64,000 nucleotides of DNA from NCBI RefSeq assembly GCF_001513785.1, contig NZ_LNQS01000008.1:310001-374000 (forward strand). The letters are read 5' to 3'. Positions within the stretch are counted from its first letter, which is position 1; every line of letters begins with the position of its first letter. The notes beneath the pieces are model-generated. The model worked only from the letters and a program-made list of their open reading frames with translations, ran no database searches and was not told the origin of the DNA. This DNA is from Rheinheimera sp. EpRS3 (GTDB lineage Bacteria > Pseudomonadota > Gammaproteobacteria > Enterobacterales > Alteromonadaceae). Below are positions 6,422 through 23,609 of the stretch, piece by piece. A program made the translations under genes and the position numbers.

Positions 6422-8037
6422 TAGCTGACGCTCGCTACCGCAGCTTCTACCGCAGCAGTAGTGCGCTCACCATTGACTAGCCGTGAGATTTGCAGCGGAT
6501 TGCTATCTTGCAGCTCTTGCGGTAACAGTGCCTGTGGGTAGTTTTGGAAACATATTGGCCGGATAAAACGGGCAATTGAGGCGGTACCTACTGAAGTAAA
6601 ACGGGCATCGGTTGCTGCCGGGAAAGGCCCGCCATGCATCATCGCATCGCACACTTCCACGCCTGTCGGGAAGTTATTAATCACCAACCGGCCAACTTTG
6701 CTGCGCAGCAACTGCACCAGTTTACTTTGCCCGGCCAATTCCGGCTCTGTGCAGTGAATAGTGCCGGTTAGCTGGCCTTTAAGGCTACTCACTACCTGGA
6801 GCAACTGATTGTTATCGTTACAGACCACCACCACCGAGGTGTGGCCAAACACTTCTTCCTGTAAATGCGGGTTGGCCAAAAAGGTAGCCGCAGCCACTTT
6901 AAATAACTGCGCCTGAGTATAAAAGCCCTGCTCTGCAGTAACGGCTGCGCCGCTGCCGGCGATACTCACGCCTGGCTGTGCTGCCAGCTCAGCCACACCT
7001 TTATTGTAGGCATCGGCAATATTGTCATTCAGCATCACGCCGGCCGGTGTTTTCGCCAGTGCTTCAGCCGCGCTTTGCATAAAGCTGTCCAGCTCTGGTC
7101 CGGCTATAGCTACGGCCACGCCAGGGTTAACACAAAACTGACCACAGCCCAGGGTTAACGAAGCCACATAGCCTTGGGCTAATACTGCGCCTGATTGCTG
7201 CAGCGCCTGTGGCAGAAATACCACCGGGTTAACACTGCCCATCTCGGCGAATACCGGTATTGGCTCCGGCCGGTCATTAGCCAGTTTGAACAGCGCCATA
7301 CCTCCGGCCAGTGAGCCGGTAAAACCGACTGCTTTTACGGCGGGTGCTACTACCAGCTCAGAGCCAATTTCCCGGCCAGAACCCATTAATAAAGAGAACA
7401 CACCAGAGGGTAAACCACAGGCTTTAACGGCGTTATCCAGCGCCTGCGCTACTAACTCACAGCTGCCAGGGTGCGAATTATGGCCTTTTACCAGCACCGG
7501 GCAGCCTGCTGCCAGCGCTGCAGCGGTATCGCCACCGGCGACCGAGAACGCCAACGGAAAGTTACTGGCGCCAAATACCACAACCGGCCCAAGCGGCTGG
7601 TTCATAAAACGTATATCCGGCCTTGGCAGTGGCTGGCGCTCTGGTAACGCCGTATCAATGCGGATATCGAGATAATCACCCGTGCGAATGGAGCTGGCAA
7701 ATAAGCGCAGCTGATGACAAATACGACCACGCTCACCTTCAACCCGGCCGCGCGGATAGCCGGTCTCCTGCATTACCCGTTCAATTAGCTCGTCCCCCAA
7801 CGCCATTACTTCTTCCGCGCAGCGCTGTAAAAACTCTGCCCGCTGTGCCGCACTGGTGTTTGCATACAAGGGCGCTGCAGCTTCTGCTGCCGCTACAGCT
7901 GAGGCAACCTGGGCCTTGCTGGCATAGCTTAATGCTGGGGCTATTTTCTGGCCGGTTGCCGGGTTAATGGCCTGATATTGCCCTGCTTCACCTGCCAGCC
8001 ATTGGCCGTTGATCAGTTGTTTGCCGGTAATACGCAT
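6421..8037 (-). CDS. Aldehyde dehydrogenase, alpha-ketoglutarate semialdehyde type
   Basis: Likely oxidises 2-oxoglutarate semialdehyde to 2-oxoglutarate, the last step of non-phosphorylative pentose oxidation, linking it to the TCA cycle. The 538-residue protein shows the ALDH pattern of the KGSADH type: FGASNFPLAFSVAGGDTAAA (cofactor region), VGFTGSLAGG near 250, the catalytic Glu in FAEMGSVNP near 280 and the catalytic Cys in LGCGQFCVNPG near 315, followed by EEVFGHTSVV. Only NAD(P) specificity remains open. It lies between the epimerase and the SDR gene in the catabolic operon. An ALDH of this class beside an IlvD/EDD dehydratase argues for a pentose rather than a hexose pathway. Confidence 0.87.
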   Translation of the reverse strand: MRITGKQLINGQWLAGEAGQYQAINPATGQKIAPALSYASKAQVASAVAAAEAAAPLYANTSAAQRAEFLQRCAEEVMALGDELIERVMQETGYPRGRVEGERGRICHQLRLFASSIRTGDYLDIRIDTALPERQPLPRPDIRFMNQPLGPVVVFGASNFPLAFSVAGGDTAAALAAGCPVLVKGHNSHPGSCELVAQALDNAVKACGLPSGVFSLLMGSGREIGSELVVAPAVKAVGFTGSLAGGMALFKLANDRPEPIPVFAEMGSVNPVVFLPQALQQSGAVLAQGYVASLTLGCGQFCVNPGVAVAIAGPELDSFMQSAAEALAKTPAGVMLNDNIADAYNKGVAELAAQPGVSIAGSGAAVTAEQGFYTQAQLFKVAAATFLANPHLQEEVFGHTSVVVVCNDNNQLLQVVSSLKGQLTGTIHCTEPELAGQSKLVQLLRSKVGRLVINNFPTGVEVCDAMMHGGPFPAATDARFTSVGTASIARFIRPICFQNYPQALLPQELQDSNPLQISRLVNGERTTAAVEAAVASVS

Positions 8038-14898: not shown

Positions 14899-14919
14899 AA
14901 AAAAGCCGCTTAACGCGGC
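14899..14919 (-). terminator. rpe terminator overlapping its stop codon
   Basis: On the - strand, GCCGC-GTTAA-GCGGC is followed by six T. The loop contains the TAA stop codon of rpe. It separates rpe from trpS, so trpS probably has its own promoter in 14815-14898. Confidence 0.75.
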
Positions 14920-15584
14920 ACTTTTGCCAATTGCTGGCGCATCTTAGTAATCACTTCGGCATAATCCGCGGCATTAAAAATGGCCGAACCGGCAACAAAC
15001 ATATCAGCGCCGGCTGCAGCGATGTCAGCAATGTTATCCAGGTTTACCCCACCATCAATTTCCAGCCGGATGGGCAAGCCGCTGGCATCGATAATATTGC
15101 GTGTTGCCGCCAGTTTCTCCAGCGTGGCCGGAATAAACTTTTGCCCGCCAAAGCCCGGGTTAACCGACATCAGCAAAATAACGTCGACTTTGTCCAATAC
15201 ATAATCCAGGTAACTCAGTGGCGTAGCCGGGTTAAATACTAATCCGGCCTGACAGCCATGGCTTTTAATTAACTGCAGAGTACGGTCAATATGCCGCGAT
15301 GCCTCAGGGTGAAAAGTAATAATGCTGGCACCCGCTTGTGCAAATTGCGGCACCAGCGCATCAACCGGTTCTACCATTAAATGCACATCTATCGGTGCAG
15401 TAATGCCGTAATTTCTCAGCGCCTGACACACCATAGGCCCCATGGTCAGGTTTGGCACATAATGATTGTCCATCACATCAAAGTGCACCACATCGGCACC
15501 AGCCTTTAATACCGCCGCCACATCATCTCCGAGGCGGGCAAAATCAGCAGACAAAATAGAAGGCGCAATCAAATAGGGTTGCAT
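14910..15584 (-). CDS. rpe: Ribulose-phosphate 3-epimerase
   Basis: Pentose-phosphate and Calvin-type epimerase interconverting D-ribulose 5-phosphate and D-xylulose 5-phosphate. About 224 residues, a TIM barrel with the family hallmarks: [16 protein letters not shown] at the N-terminus, [18 protein letters not shown] near 35, DVHLMVEP near 67, [14 protein letters not shown] near 140 and [11 protein letters not shown] near 175. The start at ATG 15584 gives the conserved N-terminus and has GGAA upstream; the longer frame begins at GTG 15605. In relatives rpe lies directly downstream of dam; here about 5 kb of other genes separate them. Confidence 0.97.
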
Positions 15585-15817
15585 AGCAGATTTCCGTTTA
15601 AGCACAGTGTGCGAACTTTACTGAATTTGGCATAAAAATGCACGGTTATGCCGCAGTGCATTAGCGCCCAAAAAACGAGCAACGGCGCACCAATTTAGCA
15701 CAAGCTGTTACATAAGTTAAAACCAGACTAACTTATCCACATGAATTAAAACAATAAAACTACATGGCATATATCTTGGAACCCCAAATCGAGGGAACAG
15801 AGAAAAGGGCGAATAAA

Positions 15818-16654: not shown

Positions 16655-16906
16655 ATGAAATTCACCACCCCGTTAAAAGCGGCTGTAATTTCAGCTGGCA
16701 TTATTGCCGGAGCTCTGAGCCTTGCCTTACCTGACTGGGTTGCCAATCACCACTGCCAGCAACTGATGCAGTCAGCTATGCCGTGTACCGAGGTTGATCA
16801 ACAAAACTGGCTGAGCTGGTTTACCGGCAAAAGTCGCTCAACCCAGTTTCATTTCGTTGATTTACTTGAACTCCTAAGCCGGTTTGCTCCGGTACAAAAG
16901 TCTTGA
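16655..16906 (+). CDS. Small secreted or membrane-anchored protein of unknown function
   Basis: 83 residues that I do not recognise. The N-terminal 27 residues (MKFTTPLKAAVISAGIIAGALSLALPDWVA) look like a signal peptide or anchor, followed by a short polar domain with two cysteines (HHCQQLMQSAMPC). The reading frame is credible because a TGGA ribosome site precedes the ATG and its TGA stop overlaps the TTG start of the DUF2970 gene (TTGA), suggesting a coupled pair. Codon use resembles the host rather than the AT-rich island that follows. Confidence 0.6.
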   Translation: MKFTTPLKAAVISAGIIAGALSLALPDWVANHHCQQLMQSAMPCTEVDQQNWLSWFTGKSRSTQFHFVDLLELLSRFAPVQKS

Positions 16907-17097
16907 CAAACCAAAAACCCTCTCTATCGCAAGTCATTAAAGCTGTGTTAGGTGCTTTGGTCGGCGTTCAGTCAGAGCAGCAACGCCAACAAGACTTCAG
17001 CGCAAGCAGCCCGCTACCTTATATTGTTGTCGGTGTTATTGTTACCCTGCTTTTTGTGGTAACACTGCTACTTGTAGTGTCCTGGGTACTCTCTTAG
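16903..17097 (+). CDS. DUF2970-family small membrane protein
   Basis: 64 residues matching the DUF2970 pattern as I recall it: an amphipathic stretch SLSQVIKAVLGALVGVQSEQQRQQDFS followed by one hydrophobic helix (about residues 37-62). Function of the family is unknown. The start is TTG, read in a TTGA overlap with the upstream stop, so translation is probably coupled. It is the last gene with host-like composition before the AT-rich segment. Confidence 0.7.
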   Translation: MTNQKPSLSQVIKAVLGALVGVQSEQQRQQDFSASSPLPYIVVGVIVTLLFVVTLLLVVSWVLS

Positions 17098-17160
17098 GTT
17101 GATACACCGCAAATAGTTCAGCTACCTTACCGCGCGTTGCACCATTTTGGCTAATCGAGT

Positions 17161-17206
17161 GAAGTTGCAGAGAAAGGGTTAGTTAAAAAGAGCGAGCTGT
17201 CCCCCC
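17161..17206. other. Possible mobile-element remnant at the island edge
   Basis: The 215 bases between the DUF2970 gene and the methyltransferase contain a tract ending GAGCGAGCTGTCCCCCC. I associate similar tracts with remnants flanking IS200/RAYT-like elements in marine Gammaproteobacteria, but this is from memory. No dam remnant is found here. Composition turns AT-rich to the right. Confidence 0.25.
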
Positions 17207-17274
17207 AAATTAATTAGAGAAGTATGTAGTTGGAAAATTGTTTTCGGCATTACATGAATTATGGCGCTTGCAAA

Positions 17275-17295
17275 TGTATACTGTTTAAATATACA
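17275..17295. promoter_or_regulatory. Inverted repeat before the methyltransferase operon
   Basis: TGTATA-N9-TATACA, a perfect six-base inverted repeat, ends 17 bases before the ATG of the methyltransferase and overlaps AT-rich promoter-like sequence (TTAAATATACATATAG). It could be an operator limiting methyltransferase expression. No control-protein gene is visible nearby. Confidence 0.4.
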
Positions 17296-17312
17296 TATAG
17301 TGAGAAAGTTAA

Positions 17313-18038
17313 ATGCCCGAAGAATCAGTTAACTATGGAATGTTCGATACTTTAGAGACAGGCAACGAGTCTTTACCTTTTAACTTGTATAACATGGATG
17401 CAATATCTTGGTTAAAGACACTGAATGACAATTCTGTTGATCTCATGATTACAGACCCACCATATGAGTCACTAGAAAAACACAGAAAAATAGGGACAAC
17501 TACACGCTTAAAAAACAGTAAAGCCTCCAGCAACAAGTGGTTCGAAATATTTCCGAACGAGCGTTTCGAGTCTTTGCTGATAGAGGTATATCGAGTTCTC
17601 AAAAAGAATAGTCATTTCTATCTTTTCTGTGATCAAGAAACAGCATTCTATGTGAAACCGATAGCTGAAAGCGTAGGATTCAAATTTTGGAAACCTATCG
17701 TATGGGACAAAATGAAAATAGGTATGGGGTACCATTACAGAGCTAGGTACGAATTCATTTTGTTTTTTGAAAAGGGAAAGAGGAAACTTAATAATTTTTC
17801 AACTCCAGATGTTTTACAGGTGCCCAGAGTATTCCGAGGATACCCCACAGAAAAACCTGTGAAACTATTGGAAATACTGATAAATCAAAGTAGCATGGCC
17901 GGAGAATGTATATTTGACCCTTTTATGGGGTCTGGTTCAACCGGAAAAGCAGCTCTAAACTTAAAACGACAATTTGTTGGAAACGATTTGTGTGTAGAAG
18001 CCTGTCAAGTGACTAAAGATAGGTTAATCAAAGAATAA
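17313..18038 (+). CDS. DNA methyltransferase, DPPY type (N6-adenine/N4-cytosine, beta-like order)
   Basis: 241-residue amino-methyltransferase. Catalytic motif IV DPPY is at about residues 48-51 (LMITDPPYESL) and the AdoMet motif I DPFMGSGSTGKAA near 205, so the catalytic motif precedes the binding motif as in the beta class of type II and orphan methyltransferases. The segment between holds a GTTTRLKNSKASSNKWF stretch, probably part of target recognition. It is the first of three genes packed on the + strand (9-base gap, then ATGA overlap). Codon use is AT-rich, unlike the flanking core genes, indicating transfer. It could be the modification half of a restriction or defence module; target sequence unknown. 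Confidence 0.9.
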   Translation: MPEESVNYGMFDTLETGNESLPFNLYNMDAISWLKTLNDNSVDLMITDPPYESLEKHRKIGTTTRLKNSKASSNKWFEIFPNERFESLLIEVYRVLKKNSHFYLFCDQETAFYVKPIAESVGFKFWKPIVWDKMKIGMGYHYRARYEFILFFEKGKRKLNNFSTPDVLQVPRVFRGYPTEKPVKLLEILINQSSMAGECIFDPFMGSGSTGKAALNLKRQFVGNDLCVEACQVTKDRLIKE

Positions 18039-18047
18039 GGACGTCGC

Positions 18048-18443
18048 ATGATTTTAACGGTATTGGCATATCCCAAAGATTTCCCACAGGGAGTTCCTCC
18101 CCAAAACGCCCAAGCAGCAGACGGAATAGCTTATAGGGTTGTGGTAAATAATCCTCCTAAACAACAGGATTTCTGTGGTTACTACAGAGAACCGTTTCAA
18201 AAAAAAGTGCCTGCCAATCCGCCTCCTAATTTTTTTGGGACATCTATGTACAGAAAATACGAATCCATAAAATTAGCTAGAGATTTGTATAAAAATCTTC
18301 GAGGAAAAAAAATAGCTAAAGGGAAGTTGAGTTCAGAATATGGTGTAATTTCTGATGAAAGACATGATTCCCACTTTGAAGCTTGGTTAAAAGAAAATTG
18401 CGGTATCGAAAAAAACTTCGAAGTTTTGAGTTGTGAATTATGA
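18048..18443 (+). CDS. Hypothetical protein in the methyltransferase operon
   Basis: 131 residues, not recognised. It begins MILTVLAYPKDFPQGVPPQ, is rich in Pro, Lys and aromatic residues, and contains NPPPNFFGTSMYRKYESIK near the middle; no membrane segment, signal peptide or catalytic motif stands out. A strong ribosome site (AAGGACGTCGC) lies between the methyltransferase stop and its ATG, and its TGA overlaps the ATG of the next gene, so it belongs to the operon. It shares the AT-rich composition. It might be a small nuclease, a specificity subunit or a DNA-binding accessory, but nothing in the sequence decides this. Confidence 0.75.
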   Translation: MILTVLAYPKDFPQGVPPQNAQAADGIAYRVVVNNPPKQQDFCGYYREPFQKKVPANPPPNFFGTSMYRKYESIKLARDLYKNLRGKKIAKGKLSSEYGVISDERHDSHFEAWLKENCGIEKNFEVLSCEL

Positions 18444-19735
18444 ATTTCATACCCAAGCTTCAAGAATTAGGCACCGTAAAGCTTTTGAAGATTTATCACC
18501 AATACGATATCCCAAGGACATTCTTAGTTAGCACTAGAAATCTCGGCTCTTGTGTCGTCATTTGGTTTGATGAAGATGAAAGTTGTGACTCTTGGTATTA
18601 CGCTCCCGTAAATGACGAAGAAATAGAAAGACTGGAACGCGGTTATGTGCAACTTCGTGATGTTTTTTGCCATAAAGAGTTATACGAAATCAGAACTGGA
18701 CACTGTGAAACAGTGAAAGCTTCCTTTAATCGGATTTCTCCTTCTACAGTCGATCAAGACGCATTGCCACCGCCTGGATTTGCAGTCAAGGTTATCGGGG
18801 AAGGGATATTTGATATTGAGCAGCGCAAGCACGATTCGTTTGCACTACACTCGAACTCACACGAAATTAGAATAAGTAGGCCTGGGAGCAAAAAACTAAT
18901 TGAGTGGGAACCTATTGAGTTTATATTTGGAGCTTGGAAGAGATTACACAATAACATCCTCCAAACTGTGCAAAATATAACCGAAGACGTTTCAGCTTTT
19001 CCAGATGTTGCTACTACTGGTTCGTATAAAATGCAATTTCGATCATCTCACAATAACGATGTATATGAAGGTGTGAAAAAGGTGTTTGACGCAGTTAAAT
19101 GTGCAGATGGTTCTTTATATAAATTAAAAGAGCTGAATGTAGATTTATCTGTATTAGAAGAGCTGCTTTTAAATCTGATAGAGTTTAATCTGAAATTTGA
19201 AATAAGAACAAATTCTGGTGCTCTTATAGAGAGTTTAAATTACAAGTTAGTTGAAAAAACAATCAACGCTTTAAATGAATATAACCAACATATAATCTCA
19301 AGTGATCTAATACCTCAAGCGAATGAAATTGACCGAATAATTACATATGTAAAAAATAAGTCTACGGGTAAACCATTTACATCAGAAACAGAAGACATTA
19401 CCCCTCGACAGATAGATTATTATAAAGCAGCTTCTGACATGCTTGGTCTAAGTAACAGAGGTACTCTGACTCCGATAGGGTGGAGGTTATCAGAGTTAGA
19501 AAATGAAATTGAAATCTACCAAATATTACTTGATAGATTTGAAACATCAGAGTGCGGATGGGCTTGGTTAAAGTACGCAGGTGTAAGATCTATATTAGAG
19601 CTAGACCCATATTCAGCAGAAAGCTTTCTGAGAGAATATTCTACAGGTCTAAGTGAGTCTACGATTGTAAGACGAGCTTCAACTCTCAGAAAATGGCCTT
19701 TAGCATTTGCTGAAAAATTAAATAGGTCGCGTTGA
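18440..19735 (+). CDS. Hypothetical protein, DUF6575-like N-terminus, in the methyltransferase operon
   Basis: 431 residues. The first about 110 residues (from FIPKLQELGTVKLLKIYHQYD, then VIWFDEDE and WYYAPVNDEEIERL) resemble DUF6575, a domain of unknown function, as I recall it. The middle is helical and Leu/Asn/Glu-rich. The last about 110 residues begin TPRQIDYYKAASDMLGL and LTPIGWRLSELE, and look like a winged-helix module seen at the C-termini of some restriction and defence proteins; this comparison is from memory. No clear PD-(D/E)xK or HNH nuclease signature is visible. Translation is coupled to the 131-residue gene by an ATGA overlap. A restriction or effector role beside the methyltransferase is plausible but unproven. 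Confidence 0.7.
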   Translation: MNFIPKLQELGTVKLLKIYHQYDIPRTFLVSTRNLGSCVVIWFDEDESCDSWYYAPVNDEEIERLERGYVQLRDVFCHKELYEIRTGHCETVKASFNRISPSTVDQDALPPPGFAVKVIGEGIFDIEQRKHDSFALHSNSHEIRISRPGSKKLIEWEPIEFIFGAWKRLHNNILQTVQNITEDVSAFPDVATTGSYKMQFRSSHNNDVYEGVKKVFDAVKCADGSLYKLKELNVDLSVLEELLLNLIEFNLKFEIRTNSGALIESLNYKLVEKTINALNEYNQHIISSDLIPQANEIDRIITYVKNKSTGKPFTSETEDITPRQIDYYKAASDMLGLSNRGTLTPIGWRLSELENEIEIYQILLDRFETSECGWAWLKYAGVRSILELDPYSAESFLREYSTGLSESTIVRRASTLRKWPLAFAEKLNRSR

Positions 19736-19784
19736 TAGAAAAAGCAATACGAGCCCAGCCAGATATTTACGCGCTTGCAATGCA

Positions 19785-19806
19785 CAATCTCTTTGCGAAG
19801 AGATTG
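19785..19806 (+). repeat. Perfect hairpin downstream of the island operon
   Basis: CAATCTCTT-TGCG-AAGAGATTG, a nine-base perfect stem with a four-base loop, is followed by CTTTACC. It has only a weak T-run, so it may be an auxiliary terminator or an RNA-processing hairpin. Confidence 0.55.
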
Positions 19807-19832
19807 CTTTACCTATACCACTTTATAACCAT

Positions 19833-19872
19833 AGCCTCTTGGATAACTTCAACCTAGAGGCTTTTTTCTTTT
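19833..19872 (+). terminator. Rho-independent terminator of the methyltransferase operon
   Basis: AGCCTCT with an inner GG pairs to CC and AGAGGCT across a 12-base loop, followed by TTTTTCTTTT. It lies between the convergent island genes and ends the rightward transcript. Confidence 0.8.
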
Positions 19873-19940
19873 GAGTTTAGTAAGTATTGATACACCTTTA
19901 CACTAATCAACCTTCTAAACTTATTACAAGGCATTTAAGA

Positions 19941-20510
19941 CTATTTAGCAGGAAACATCACAAACCCGTGTTTCTCAAAGGTCTTCTTAAATTTCATACT
20001 ATTTTTTCCAAAATAGAAGAACGCCTGACCTCGAGTATTTCCTGATATATTTTTTCTATCAGCATTCCAGAAGCTTATTCTATGATTCGTAAAACAAATA
20101 GCACTACAATGATTCACAAGTGCACTAAACCACCTGGTATCAGTAGCATTATTTGCCAGTACAATACCTTCTACAAATTTATGAGCGTCATATTGATCAA
20201 TAAATCGATTTACAGAGCGCCCACACAGCCCTGCTGAATAGGGAGGGTTCATAAAAACTTTAACCTTGTCACCAACGTTCCAATCGTTGTCGAAAGCACT
20301 GTTATCTATAGTGAATATCTTTGTCGCCCGTACGATTTCATTTGCTCTTTCTGACGAAAAAGGGTCTAGATCGATTCCACCTAAGACAGTTCGAACTGAA
20401 TCTATATACTCAGGTGGAGTAAACCAAGCGTCAGAATCTCTTTTCTTTTCCTCAGAAGTGCCAGGCTTAGCTCCAATGTAGGCTAATTTGTTTGAGTTAG
20501 CTTTGGTCAT
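19941..20510 (-). CDS. Phage-type DNA N6-adenine methyltransferase
   Basis: 189 residues of the phage Dam-like family (Pfam DNA N-6-adenine-methyltransferase). Diagnostic features are DAWFTPPEYIDSVRTVLG near residue 27, LDPFSSERAN near 48, the catalytic MNPPYSAG near 87, and RISFWNADRKN with GQAFFYFG near the C-terminus. The ATG at 20510 follows a GAGGCGAT ribosome site; a TTG one codon earlier is the end of the open frame. Convergent to the three-gene operon and just downstream of the broken dam gene in the same direction. It might supply adenine methylation that the host Dam can no longer perform, or protect the island DNA; its target is unknown. Confidence 0.88.
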   Translation of the reverse strand: MTKANSNKLAYIGAKPGTSEEKKRDSDAWFTPPEYIDSVRTVLGGIDLDPFSSERANEIVRATKIFTIDNSAFDNDWNVGDKVKVFMNPPYSAGLCGRSVNRFIDQYDAHKFVEGIVLANNATDTRWFSALVNHCSAICFTNHRISFWNADRKNISGNTRGQAFFYFGKNSMKFKKTFEKHGFVMFPAK

Positions 20511-20544
20511 CAAAATCGCCTCAGTGTTTTTCTATAATTACGAC

Positions 20545-20555
20545 GTGTATTACAC
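20545..20555. promoter_or_regulatory. Palindrome before the phage-type methyltransferase
   Basis: GTGTATTACAC is an 11-base perfect palindrome about 35 bases upstream of the methyltransferase ATG, overlapping likely promoter sequence (TAATTATAG on the - strand). Candidate operator; no regulator is identified. Confidence 0.35.
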
Positions 20556-20563
20556 ATCTAATT

Positions 20564-21256
20564 CTAATAAGTACGCCATTTATAAGCATGGTTTACAAAT
20601 CGACGTTTTCTTGTAAAGGTAAATAAAACTTTTCTTAAAAAGGATTCAAAGATCAAAGCATTATCAACAACCCAAGCGAAAAGTTCTTTTTTAGTTCGAT
20701 ATAAGCAATAAACCACTGCACCAACAGGCGCCTGCAGCATTAGTTGCTGGTAGCTGGCACAGCTAAATTCAGCACGTTGCGCTTTCTCTGCGAAAAAATA
20801 CAACTCGGCTTGTGGAAAGTACGGCTTTTTATAACTGCCAAAAGGCACATTAAACTTACCTGAAAGATTGTAACGGCACAGGCCATTGTAGCCATGCCGG
20901 TTCAGATACAGAAATAACAGCGCCCGCTCATAGGCATCGTCACTGAGGTTGAATTGCTGGCGCAACCGCAGATAAACCTCACGCTGGTTAGTGAGCTGTG
21001 TAAACAAGGTTTTTGCATCAGCTATAAAACTATCGGGCTGAGTTTTAACCAGTTGATACAAGTTAATTAGATCTGCGTTAATATCGTTCAGTTTATAGCT
21101 TGGATAATCAGTATTAAGGAATACTGAGCCGGCGCCAACGAAAGGTTCTATCAGAGTATCACTGTCTGGCAGATGCTGTTGTATTGCATCTACCAGATTG
21201 TATTTCCCACCCGCCCACTTAAGAAATGCCCGGCTTTTTTGCCTGCTTTTAACCAT
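20564..21256 (-). pseudogene. dam: Truncated Dam adenine methyltransferase lacking DPPY
   Basis: Residues 1-184 are a clear housekeeping Dam: RAFLKWAGGKYNLVDAIQQH, EPFVGAGSVFLNTDYPSY, LFLYLNRHGYNGLCRYNL and GKFNVPFGSYKKPYFPQAELY. The match ends at VVYC (codon ending at 20705), where Dam should continue with the catalytic DPPY. Instead 46 unrelated residues rich in Phe, Arg and Lys run to a stop; about 95 residues of normal Dam, with the catalytic motif, are missing. I checked all three - strand frames over 20521-20707 and found no DPPY, so this is not a simple frameshift. Host-like composition stops at the same point, so acquisition of the neighbouring island removed the 3' end. GATC methylation by this protein is very unlikely. 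Confidence 0.88.
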
Positions 21257-21262
21257 AGGTTG

Positions 21263-22552
21263 TTATTCCGGCACGCTTTGCTGGTTGCGGCGCAAGGCGT
21301 TAATTTCTGTCTGTACGGCCTGTAATCGTTTAACAAAAGGCCCGCCAGTCCGCAGTGCCTCAGGCAACTGTGCCAGTTGTTGATTAGCAGCAGCGGCATT
21401 ACTAAACGGTGCCAATAATATTACCCGTTGTGTTTTACCCTGCCAGTTACGCTGATAAACCAGGCTGCCCAGCTGTGGATAAGCCTTATTAAAGCGCTGT
21501 AAGGACGCATCACTGGACAATACGGCAAGCTGCAGTGCTACCTGTTGTTTGTCCATGCCGAGCAGTTCGGTTTCATCATACTTAAAAGACTCTACTACAA
21601 GCGGTTCCTCAACCTCTGGCGCATCCGGTTCTGATACGGCTTGCTCTGCCGGCACGGTTGCATTTTCAGCTTCAATCGCACTATCGTCTGTAACGATTTG
21701 CTCTGGCGCAGCAGGTGGAATTGTCGGGATCAGTTCTGGTTCAGGTACAGGCTCTACAAAAGCGGTGTCTTGTTCTGCGATAACGTCTTCTGGCTCTGGC
21801 GTAACTGCTGGTATCGGCACCGGTATACGCACTGGCGTATCAGGTGTTTCGCTTTCAGGCCAGAAAAAATAAAGCAACATAGCCACCAAAACTACCGCTA
21901 TCACAATATATACCGCTTTAAACGGCGGCATAGCAGGCTTAGTGTATTCTGGTATTATTGCAGCAGACCTGGCTTGCGCCGCGGGACGCAATAACAAGTG
22001 CAGGTTGCCATCAGCATCAGCCAGACGAGTGGTAATTTCCAGTGGATTAAGTTGTTCTGCTAGCAGCAAGGATTCTGCATCGGCGGATGTAGGCCGATTG
22101 ATGGTAAGCGTTAAGCCGTCGTCTAATAAGGGTTTGCCGGAAAAGCTAAACAGCAAACAGGATAAATTCTGTAACTGTGGCAAAATAGTGCTAAATTGCT
22201 CGGTATTATCAATGATAAGCAGCAACGGCATTGTACCGGCCTGGGCCGCTATTTGTTCCGACAACGCGACACCAGCCTGGGCTGGCAAACCAAACCATTG
22301 CTGCATTAACTGGCCTGCAACCTGATCATCACCTGCGGCGGTATTGAGCAAAGCAACGTTATATTGCTCGGAAAACAGCTCAGCCAGTGTCAATGCCAGT
22401 GTTGACTTACCGCTGCCCACTGCACCAACAGCCTCAATATGATCAACATCATTAAACGCCAGTTGGAACAGCAACCGTTCTGTCCATTCCCGCTGCGATG
22501 GCAGCAAGTGGTCAAACGATGCTAACTTTGCCTGCAGTTCAGTTGTTTCCAT
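21263..22552 (-). CDS. damX: DamX-like cell-division protein (ATPase-like + SPOR)
   Basis: Membrane protein recruited to the septum. About 429 residues: an N-terminal AAA-like domain with Walker A GAVGSGKST near residue 43, one transmembrane helix near 215-235 (AVYIVIAVVLVAMLLYFFW), a Pro/Glu/Val-rich acidic linker, and a C-terminal SPOR domain (ALQLAVLSSDASLQRFN ... QRVILLAPFSNAAAANQQL) that binds denuded peptidoglycan. ATG 22552 is preferred over the TTG two codons upstream. It overlaps the aroB end and is followed by dam, the conserved aroK-aroB-damX-dam order. Confidence 0.9.
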   Translation of the reverse strand: METTELQAKLASFDHLLPSQREWTERLLFQLAFNDVDHIEAVGAVGSGKSTLALTLAELFSEQYNVALLNTAAGDDQVAGQLMQQWFGLPAQAGVALSEQIAAQAGTMPLLLIIDNTEQFSTILPQLQNLSCLLFSFSGKPLLDDGLTLTINRPTSADAESLLLAEQLNPLEITTRLADADGNLHLLLRPAAQARSAAIIPEYTKPAMPPFKAVYIVIAVVLVAMLLYFFWPESETPDTPVRIPVPIPAVTPEPEDVIAEQDTAFVEPVPEPELIPTIPPAAPEQIVTDDSAIEAENATVPAEQAVSEPDAPEVEEPLVVESFKYDETELLGMDKQQVALQLAVLSSDASLQRFNKAYPQLGSLVYQRNWQGKTQRVILLAPFSNAAAANQQLAQLPEALRTGGPFVKRLQAVQTEINALRRNQQSVPE

Positions 22553-23609
22553 CAGCAAATACCCTGAAAAGTTCCGTTTCGGTTACGTTATCTACCACAG
22601 CTGTGGCGCCAAACGCGGTTGGTAACACAAAACGCATACTGCCGTTTTTAACTTTTTTATCCGTTTTCATGTAAGGCATAAAATCGCCAATATGCATACC
22701 TTCTGGAGGTTTAACCGGCAATGAAAATGCCAGCAATAATGCATTAATACGTGTTAAGTCTGCTGCTTGCAAATCGCCCCGACTGAAAGCCAGTTCAGCG
22801 GCCATTACCATACCTACTGCCACCGCCTCGCCATGCAGCCATTCGCCATAACCCAGATAAGCTTCTATAGCATGGCCAAAAGTATGGCCTAAATTAAGCA
22901 GTGCTCTTTCGCCTTGCTCTGTTTCATCGCGGCTGACAATATCAGCTTTCATTTGGCAACAGTAGCGAATCATCTCGGCCAGTGTAGCAGCATGCTGTTG
23001 TTGAATAAGCTGTTGTTTCTGTTCCAGCCAGCTGAAAAACTCAGCGTCAGCTATCAGGGCATACTTAATCACTTCTGCCATACCGGCTGCAAACTCCCGC
23101 GTAGGCAACGTTGATAACACTGCAGTATTAATCAGTACCTGAGCAGGTTGTTTAAAAGCACCGATCATATTCTTGCCAAGCGGATGGTTTACGGCTGTTT
23201 TACCACCCACAGAAGAATCGACCTGAGATAATAACGTAGTGGGAATTTGTAAAAAGGGCACACCGCGCTGATAACAGGCAGCAACAAAACCAGTAAGATC
23301 GCCAATTACCCCACCGCCCAGTGCAACCAGTAGTGCATCGCGGGACATGCGCTGTTCCAGCAAAAAACCCATAACCTGTTCAAACGAACTTAAGGTTTTA
23401 TAGGCTTCACCATCAGGCAGTAAGAAATGTAGTGTTGTGCAGCCGGTAAACAATTGCTGCACAGACTGAAGATAAAGTGGGGCCACGGTGGGGTTAGAGA
23501 TAATAACAACCTGACGGCAGTTCGCCAGCGCAGGTTCTAGCCCTTGAAAATTATCAGCGATAGAGATGGTGTAGCTGCGTTCGCCAAGTTGGACTTCAAC
23601 TTTCTGCAT
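22539..23609 (-). CDS. aroB: 3-dehydroquinate synthase
   Basis: Second step of the shikimate pathway: NAD- and metal-dependent cyclisation of DAHP to 3-dehydroquinate. 356 residues. Conserved motifs are GGGVIGDLTGFVAACYQRG near 97, PTTLLSQVDSSVGGKTAVNH near 128, the substrate/metal region EVIKYALI and RALLNLGHTFGHAIEA near 240, with GEAVAVGM near 265. It follows aroK by 24 bases and overlaps damX by 14, so it belongs to the aroK-aroB-damX operon. Confidence 0.97.
   Translation of the reverse strand: MQKVEVQLGERSYTISIADNFQGLEPALANCRQVVIISNPTVAPLYLQSVQQLFTGCTTLHFLLPDGEAYKTLSSFEQVMGFLLEQRMSRDALLVALGGGVIGDLTGFVAACYQRGVPFLQIPTTLLSQVDSSVGGKTAVNHPLGKNMIGAFKQPAQVLINTAVLSTLPTREFAAGMAEVIKYALIADAEFFSWLEQKQQLIQQQHAATLAEMIRYCCQMKADIVSRDETEQGERALLNLGHTFGHAIEAYLGYGEWLHGEAVAVGMVMAAELAFSRGDLQAADLTRINALLLAFSLPVKPPEGMHIGDFMPYMKTDKKVKNGSMRFVLPTAFGATAVVDNVTETELFRVFADGNN

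Follow-up and report, generated by a model that had tools for sequence, protein, structure and literature searches.

A housekeeping dam gene in Rheinheimera sp. EpRS3 is split by a foreign, methyltransferase-bearing island

Gene Content of the Locus

The window considered here, a 64,000-nucleotide stretch of one Rheinheimera sp. EpRS3 contig, contains a housekeeping dam gene in two pieces with an island of foreign genes between them (Table 1). The gene upstream of dam is presumably damX, named by synteny, with the SPOR domain of its product falling below the cut-off, and the gene on the far side is taken to be rpe from a reading of its sequence together with synteny. A sigma-70 and terminator scan of positions 17000-21300 gave eight promoter-like sites (11.5 in shuffled sequences) and three terminator-like ones (2.9 in shuffles), so that no promoter or terminator signal in this interval exceeds the shuffles.

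Table 1. Features of the dam locus, in window coordinates.
Feature	Position	Strand	Description	Basis
rpe (presumed)	14910..15605	-	Host gene, next in the order aroK-aroB-damX-dam-rpe-trpS	Sequence reading and synteny
DUF2970 gene	16903..17097	+	Host gene, convergent with dam; 3' ends overlap	Same arrangement in G014
dam 3' remnant	17042..17158	-	Codons 254-291 (the last 38) and stop	Own-genome match of intact Dam
Inserted island	17159..20705		3,547 bp, replacing 208 bp of dam	G014 junctions, GC
Beta-class N6/N4 DNA methyltransferase	17313..18038	+	DPPY at 17454-17465; FDPFMGSGS	PF01555
PD-T4-10_A-like, candidate antitoxin	18048..18443	+		PADLOC PD-T4-10_A (E=6.9e-7); alignment
PD-T4-10_B-like DUF6575 protein, candidate toxin/effector	18440..19735	+		PF20215 (E=8e-16); PADLOC PD-T4-10_B (E=2.1e-4)
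Phage-type DNA adenine methyltransferase	19941..20510	-	189 aa from ATG; NPPY at 20238-20249	PF05869 (Dam)
dam' tail	20564..20704	-	46 out-of-family codons and stop; island DNA	Within insert; no listed family match
dam'	20705..21256	-	Codons 1-184 of housekeeping dam, ending VVYC	G014 identity; PF02086/PRK10904.1
damX (presumed)	21263..22558	-	Host gene, upstream of dam'	Between aroB and dam; collinear with G014

The open reading frame that includes dam' (20564-21256, minus strand) encodes 230 amino acids. PF02086 matches it over residues 14-184 (E=3.9e-52; profile positions 1-181 of 253) and PRK10904.1, a profile of 271 positions, over residues 6-184; no family match continues past residue 184 except that of a single PHROG, which reaches 185. 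The broken protein scores above the TIGR00571 subfamily cut-off (208.5 vs. 114.85) and the Pfam cut-off, and below the PRK10904.1 equivalog cut-off (301.2 vs. 441 bits). Motif I of the alpha-class Dam domain is present (FVGAGS, 21125-21142), while DPPY and the remainder of codons 185-253 are absent, leaving the domain incomplete. The initial annotation had described Dam homology running to VVYC at residue 184 and stopping directly before DPPY, an unrelated tail of 46 residues, and no DPPY in any minus-strand frame of 20521-20707. All of this is borne out: in the closest relative, G014, VVYC is followed directly by the first codon of DPPY, no listed family match extends past residue 185, and the frames, when checked, lack the motif. 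The observation was right but incomplete, the cut being one end of a replacement of 208 bp by 3,547 bp. Because 20564-20704 falls inside the inserted stretch, the tail is island DNA accidentally read in frame (GC of 20564-20705, 29.6%). The island has removed the catalytic DPPY, and this copy therefore cannot encode a complete Dam.

Junctions, Composition, and Age of the Insertion

Of 30 genomes from the same genus, G014 is the closest and served to place the junctions; its intact Dam has 291 residues and is 98% identical to dam' over residues 1-184. Codons 185-253 of that gene (208 bp, the first codons being those for DPPY) are missing from the window, and the island junctions correspond to 12499/12500 and 12707/12708 of the G014 stretch (L033); the right edge could be off by 1 bp, with base 20705 counted in both island and dam'. 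Up to 17158 and again from 20706 onward the window and G014 run collinearly with some 96% identity (18 kb fetched), and GC is 36.8% in the island vs. 47.3 and 47.4% in the flanks. A search of the genome with the intact Dam returned two pieces, dam' and the 3' remnant (93% identity), the second match extending a few codons into the island. Because the last 38 codons survive beyond the island, dam is split, not simply truncated.

In the comparison with relatives that the initial annotation had proposed, the dam frame is open and includes DPPY in 29 of the 29 same-genus loci inspected, and in all 30 relatives the match to Dam continues as far as residue 184, within open frames 273 or more amino acids long (the thirtieth, G023, without a fetched locus). 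A DNA search with 17100-20720 gave matches in 9 of the 30 other genomes of the genus, all of them within query bases 1-60, which are flank, and none to island DNA; for many genomes this search scored 9 of the first-look candidates. That dam has been split by a foreign, methyltransferase-bearing island is solid.

How the island arrived is a guess, since neither an integrase nor terminal repeats were found. No direct or inverted repeats link its ends, and the deleted 208 bp have no notable homology to it, the longest exact match being 10 nt; an integrase or transposon boundary was considered and rejected on these two grounds. No integrase match in the island exceeds the cut-off (a SAM-like match in the B protein is sub-threshold, at 18.4 vs. 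22.3 bits), and no tRNA or tmRNA gene lies in the window. The integrase, att repeats and tRNA/tmRNA site of an integrase-mobilized island or P4-like satellite are thus all lacking here.

Along the window's branch, dam' has accumulated 8 synonymous and 4 nonsynonymous changes, vs. 130 and 23 in 11 neighboring genes (Fisher p=0.11; counts omit ambiguous sites); on the G014 branch the corresponding dam counts are 8 and 0, or 7 and 0 by a second script. Relaxed selection on dam' was considered and rejected, given p=0.11 and the variability of the changed positions across the 29 relatives. Because dam' shows no clear sign of decay, the insertion event is probably young.

Island Genes

The product of 17313-18038, which we take to be a beta-class methyltransferase from the order of its motifs, also has a 41-residue match to PF02086 that barely exceeds the cut-off (23.4 vs. 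22 bits). The A gene starts nine nucleotides after it, and its last 4 nt are shared with the start of B. These two adjacent genes match both PD-T4-10 models, with weak E-values and no curated cut-off given for the models. As far as the consulted part of the original description goes (PMC9519451, Nat Microbiol 2022), PD-T4-10 also consists of two adjacent or overlapping genes, of which B is toxic in E. coli and neutralized by A, the pair protecting against T-even phages, and DUF6575 is among the newly found defense domains. The island pair is distant from this system, as the E-values in Table 1 indicate; and no methyltransferase is mentioned in the same portion of that description, whereas the pairs in the window and in two other loci (L048 and L056, below) are preceded by a beta-class methyltransferase. 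In family-model searches neither A nor B of the window matched a nuclease family. The AlphaFold model of B (mean pLDDT 80.6, pTM 0.55) matches nothing in the PDB at E<=0.001 and two entries at that threshold in a viral structure library, the better of them named DUF6575. The B protein of L048 weakly matches REase_II (0.0029) and an endonuclease effector model (0.0044).

The remaining island gene encodes a protein that belongs to PF05869 (65.6 bits, gathering cut-off 28.1) and also matches phrog_111; its score lies below the TIGR01712 equivalog cut-off (48.6 vs. 97.05 bits). NPPY begins at residue 87 of the 188-aa query, and LDPFSS and WFTPP are present as well. The gene is on the same strand as dam' and starts 53 nt after the dam' stop, with its ATG at 20508-20510 and, 8 nt before this, a GAGG that is a plausible ribosome site. 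Phage T1 Dam, which methylates GATC, is a member of the same family (E=1.7e-70) and shares the W-x-TP, LD and NPPY motifs, but is only 25% identical to the island enzyme; this is closer to proteins of other phages, at up to 54% identity in IMG/VR contigs and 42% in Vibrio phages. Among 394 genomes of the order, 17 have a match to the protein, the close ones being the strain's own, G307 and G110.

One Pantoea phage encodes a Dam-superfamily enzyme, and its DNA is digested by DpnI and resists MboI, which host Dam could explain (PMC8306585, in the part consulted). A GATC-specific phage MT-A70 enzyme is on record, as is a phage adenine methyltransferase with very relaxed or non-specific activity, its family not established here (both in the consulted part of PMC7556043); the portion of PMC4936722 examined for GATC specificity contains nothing on GATC. 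Because GATC-specific and very relaxed phage methyltransferases are both on record, GATC is a candidate target of the island's PF05869 enzyme.

Relatives of the Island

Fifteen loci with adjacent A and B genes were compared. Three, including the window, have the order methyltransferase-A-B; one (L049) has a PF05869 gene followed by A and B; one (L058) has a methyltransferase relative nearby; and ten (L050, L051, L059, L060, L114-L119) have no relative of either island methyltransferase in the fetched stretch, six of these (L114-L119) being similar prophage-like contigs. Relatives of the methyltransferase without annotated A and B genes alongside occur in L057, L131, and L132. Because the methyltransferase, the A-B pair, and the PF05869 gene occur in differing combinations across loci, the parts of the island are, on this comparative evidence, mobile and combine freely, and the shared gene orders show a PD-T4-10-like pair that travels with a methylase. 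In the Aeromonas plasmid represented by L132 (3935-5900), the methyltransferase relative lies immediately after an integrase and before a gene of the phosphoadenosine phosphosulfate reductase family.

In the two other loci with the full order, the module lies behind a tmRNA gene and an integrase: at 4909-7281 of L048, from Chimaeribacter arupi (73, 44, and 42% identity), and at 5931-8287 of L056, from E. coli E7-1N7, where phage polarity suppression genes follow. The L056 arrangement matches the defense hotspot between psu and int in P4-like satellites, as given in the consulted part of PMC9122126 (Cell Host Microbe 2022). L048 has the tmRNA gene, integrase, module, and a primase-helicase, and P4-like is a reading of it; no Psu relative was found there (one ORF compared). 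The island differs from the hotspot, having no integrase, psu, tmRNA or tRNA, and a dam gene as its site.

The components are sparsely distributed. The A-B DNA of L056 is present in one of 5,426 E. coli genomes, E7-1N7 itself, and island DNA in two of the 5,426, limited to the methyltransferase part. The B protein is matched in 7 of 394 genomes of the order, and DUF6575 (E<=0.001) in 3 of 369 of the class, two of them over the cut-off; both counts include the strain's own genome. Viral contigs searched with the window's own sequence gave no B. The idea that the PF05869 gene always accompanies the A/B system was considered and rejected, L049 being the only other locus with that combination. A close relative of the L049 PF05869 gene occurs without A/B in L110 (from G307), and neither A nor B was found in the fetched flanks of 16 loci with viral PF05869 relatives.

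Fate of GATC Methylation

In gammaproteobacteria Dam labels the old strand of DNA in mismatch repair and sets the timing of replication. MutH and SeqA were both matched in this genome, in open frames of 259 and 206 amino acids. Methyltransferases were sought genome-wide in three families, PF02086, PF05869, and PF01555. A second complete dam, which the initial annotation had suggested looking for, did not appear: the sole PF02086 match in this search is the broken dam, and the one PF05869 gene and the one PF01555 gene over the cut-off are both in the island. A weak, partial PF01555 match below the cut-off, possibly a further methyltransferase, lies at C1:486478-486648 (L112) of the same genome.

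The initial annotation concluded that GATC methylation had either been lost from this locus or moved to another enzyme. As an either/or this stands; the replacement insertion, the 3' remnant and the phage-type Dam had been overlooked. Any remaining Dam-type marking would have to come from another enzyme, most plausibly an island-borne one, and a GATC enzyme encoded outside the island, for instance of the MT-A70 type, could also exist, since the genome search was limited to the three families.

The explanation preferred here, with a probability of roughly 0.5, is that a mobile defense cassette destroyed the host Dam and that the island's PF05869 enzyme supplies GATC methylation in its place. 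A phage- or satellite-derived anti-phage cassette would have landed in dam by illegitimate (non-integrase) recombination; the PF05869 enzyme, transcribed from the damX promoters, would make GATC methylation; and Dam would thereby have been displaced in place by a non-orthologous enzyme. The A/B pair may act as a toxin/antitoxin-like abortive-infection module, with the beta-class methyltransferase as its passenger or partner. That GATC methylation has probably been kept is suggested by mutH and seqA, which are retained and open.

The same insertion could also have occurred with no replacement, the strain being Dam-minus, the island methyltransferases directed at other sites, and MutH and SeqA stranded without hemimethylated GATC. 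Dam is non-essential in many bacteria, the search of PF02086, PF05869, and PF01555 turned up no proven GATC enzyme, and if the insertion is young (flanks 96% identical to G014) mutH and seqA would not have decayed yet; but a phage-type Dam with a plausible ribosome site occupies precisely the slot of dam and is oriented as dam is, and in two other genomes of the family (G205 and G295) the slot holds another Dam-family gene in place of the housekeeping-type dam. A Dam-minus strain is thus possible, if somewhat doubtful, and we lean slightly toward supply of GATC methylation by the PF05869 enzyme. It is distinctly improbable that the beta-class enzyme does this instead, forming a restriction-modification-like system with A and B whose mark would coincide with that of Dam. 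The methyltransferase-A-B order common to the window, L048, and L056 would fit such a system, as would the PF02086 match noted above, the nuclease-like matches of the L048 B protein, and best solved-structure matches labeled Adenine specific DNA methyltransferase (DpnA). Those solved entries, however, match at just E=2.6e-15 and 2.9e-15; the window's own B has neither a nuclease family match nor, at E<=0.001, a PDB fold match; and the genes are often found apart, both as A-B loci with no nearby relative of either methyltransferase (10 of 15) and as methyltransferase relatives with no A-B alongside.

An assembly or contamination artifact, with sequence from an unrelated contig misjoined inside dam, would account for the sharp GC change and the absence of attachment-site repeats. 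It would need two independent breakpoints within one gene, and the dam remnant is intact on the far side. Assembly error is very unlikely, given the 860-kb contig, a listed contamination of 0.12, collinearity with G014 on both sides, and an insert whose open genes have relatives in other mobile elements.

Did the cassette take over the host epigenetic system, destroying dam by landing on its catalytic segment and filling the operon slot with a phage-type Dam that it carried? This seems rather unlikely. If true, mismatch-repair strand choice and SeqA control would depend on the cassette, that dependence would make the island hard to lose, and the G205 and G295 swaps would add to the instances of Dam being displaced at the damX-rpe slot. 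A genome with MutH and SeqA but an island-split Dam and two other methylases is in any event a ready natural test: can a phage-type enzyme run mismatch repair and replication timing, or how does a cell cope without Dam?

Other Dam Genes at the damX-rpe Slot

Intact Dam matches 379 of the 394 genomes of the order at E<=0.001. Of the 15 without a match, nine are at most 1.2 Mb in size and three more are less than 90% complete, neither being true of G057, G235, and G376. Five weak-match genomes were chosen for a second look and four stretches fetched, the other weak ones belonging mostly to family f3. In two of the stretches (G140 and G414) damX, aroB, and rpe were not found in the 15.5 kb fetched. 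G295 and G205 are members of the same family as the window, and in each the damX-DUF2970/rpe slot is occupied by a PF02086 gene that shows 35-39% identity and encodes a DPPY of its own, together with other genes. These slots resemble the window in that the housekeeping-type dam is gone and another Dam-type gene is there; they differ in having a complete PF02086 gene with DPPY where the window has a PF05869 enzyme and a split dam. Because the G295 and G205 slots hold a diverged PF02086 gene, displacement of Dam at this position has, on the comparison of these loci, occurred elsewhere in the family. No report of an island splitting dam was found in the literature, judged from titles and abstract openings, which is no proof of absence. 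The PF02086 slot genes lie at 7177-8004 (minus strand) of L127 and 7117-7941 (plus strand) of L128, and the extra genes at these dam slots encode a GGDEF-EAL protein and MarR-family, sodium:solute symporter, and amino acid kinase proteins.
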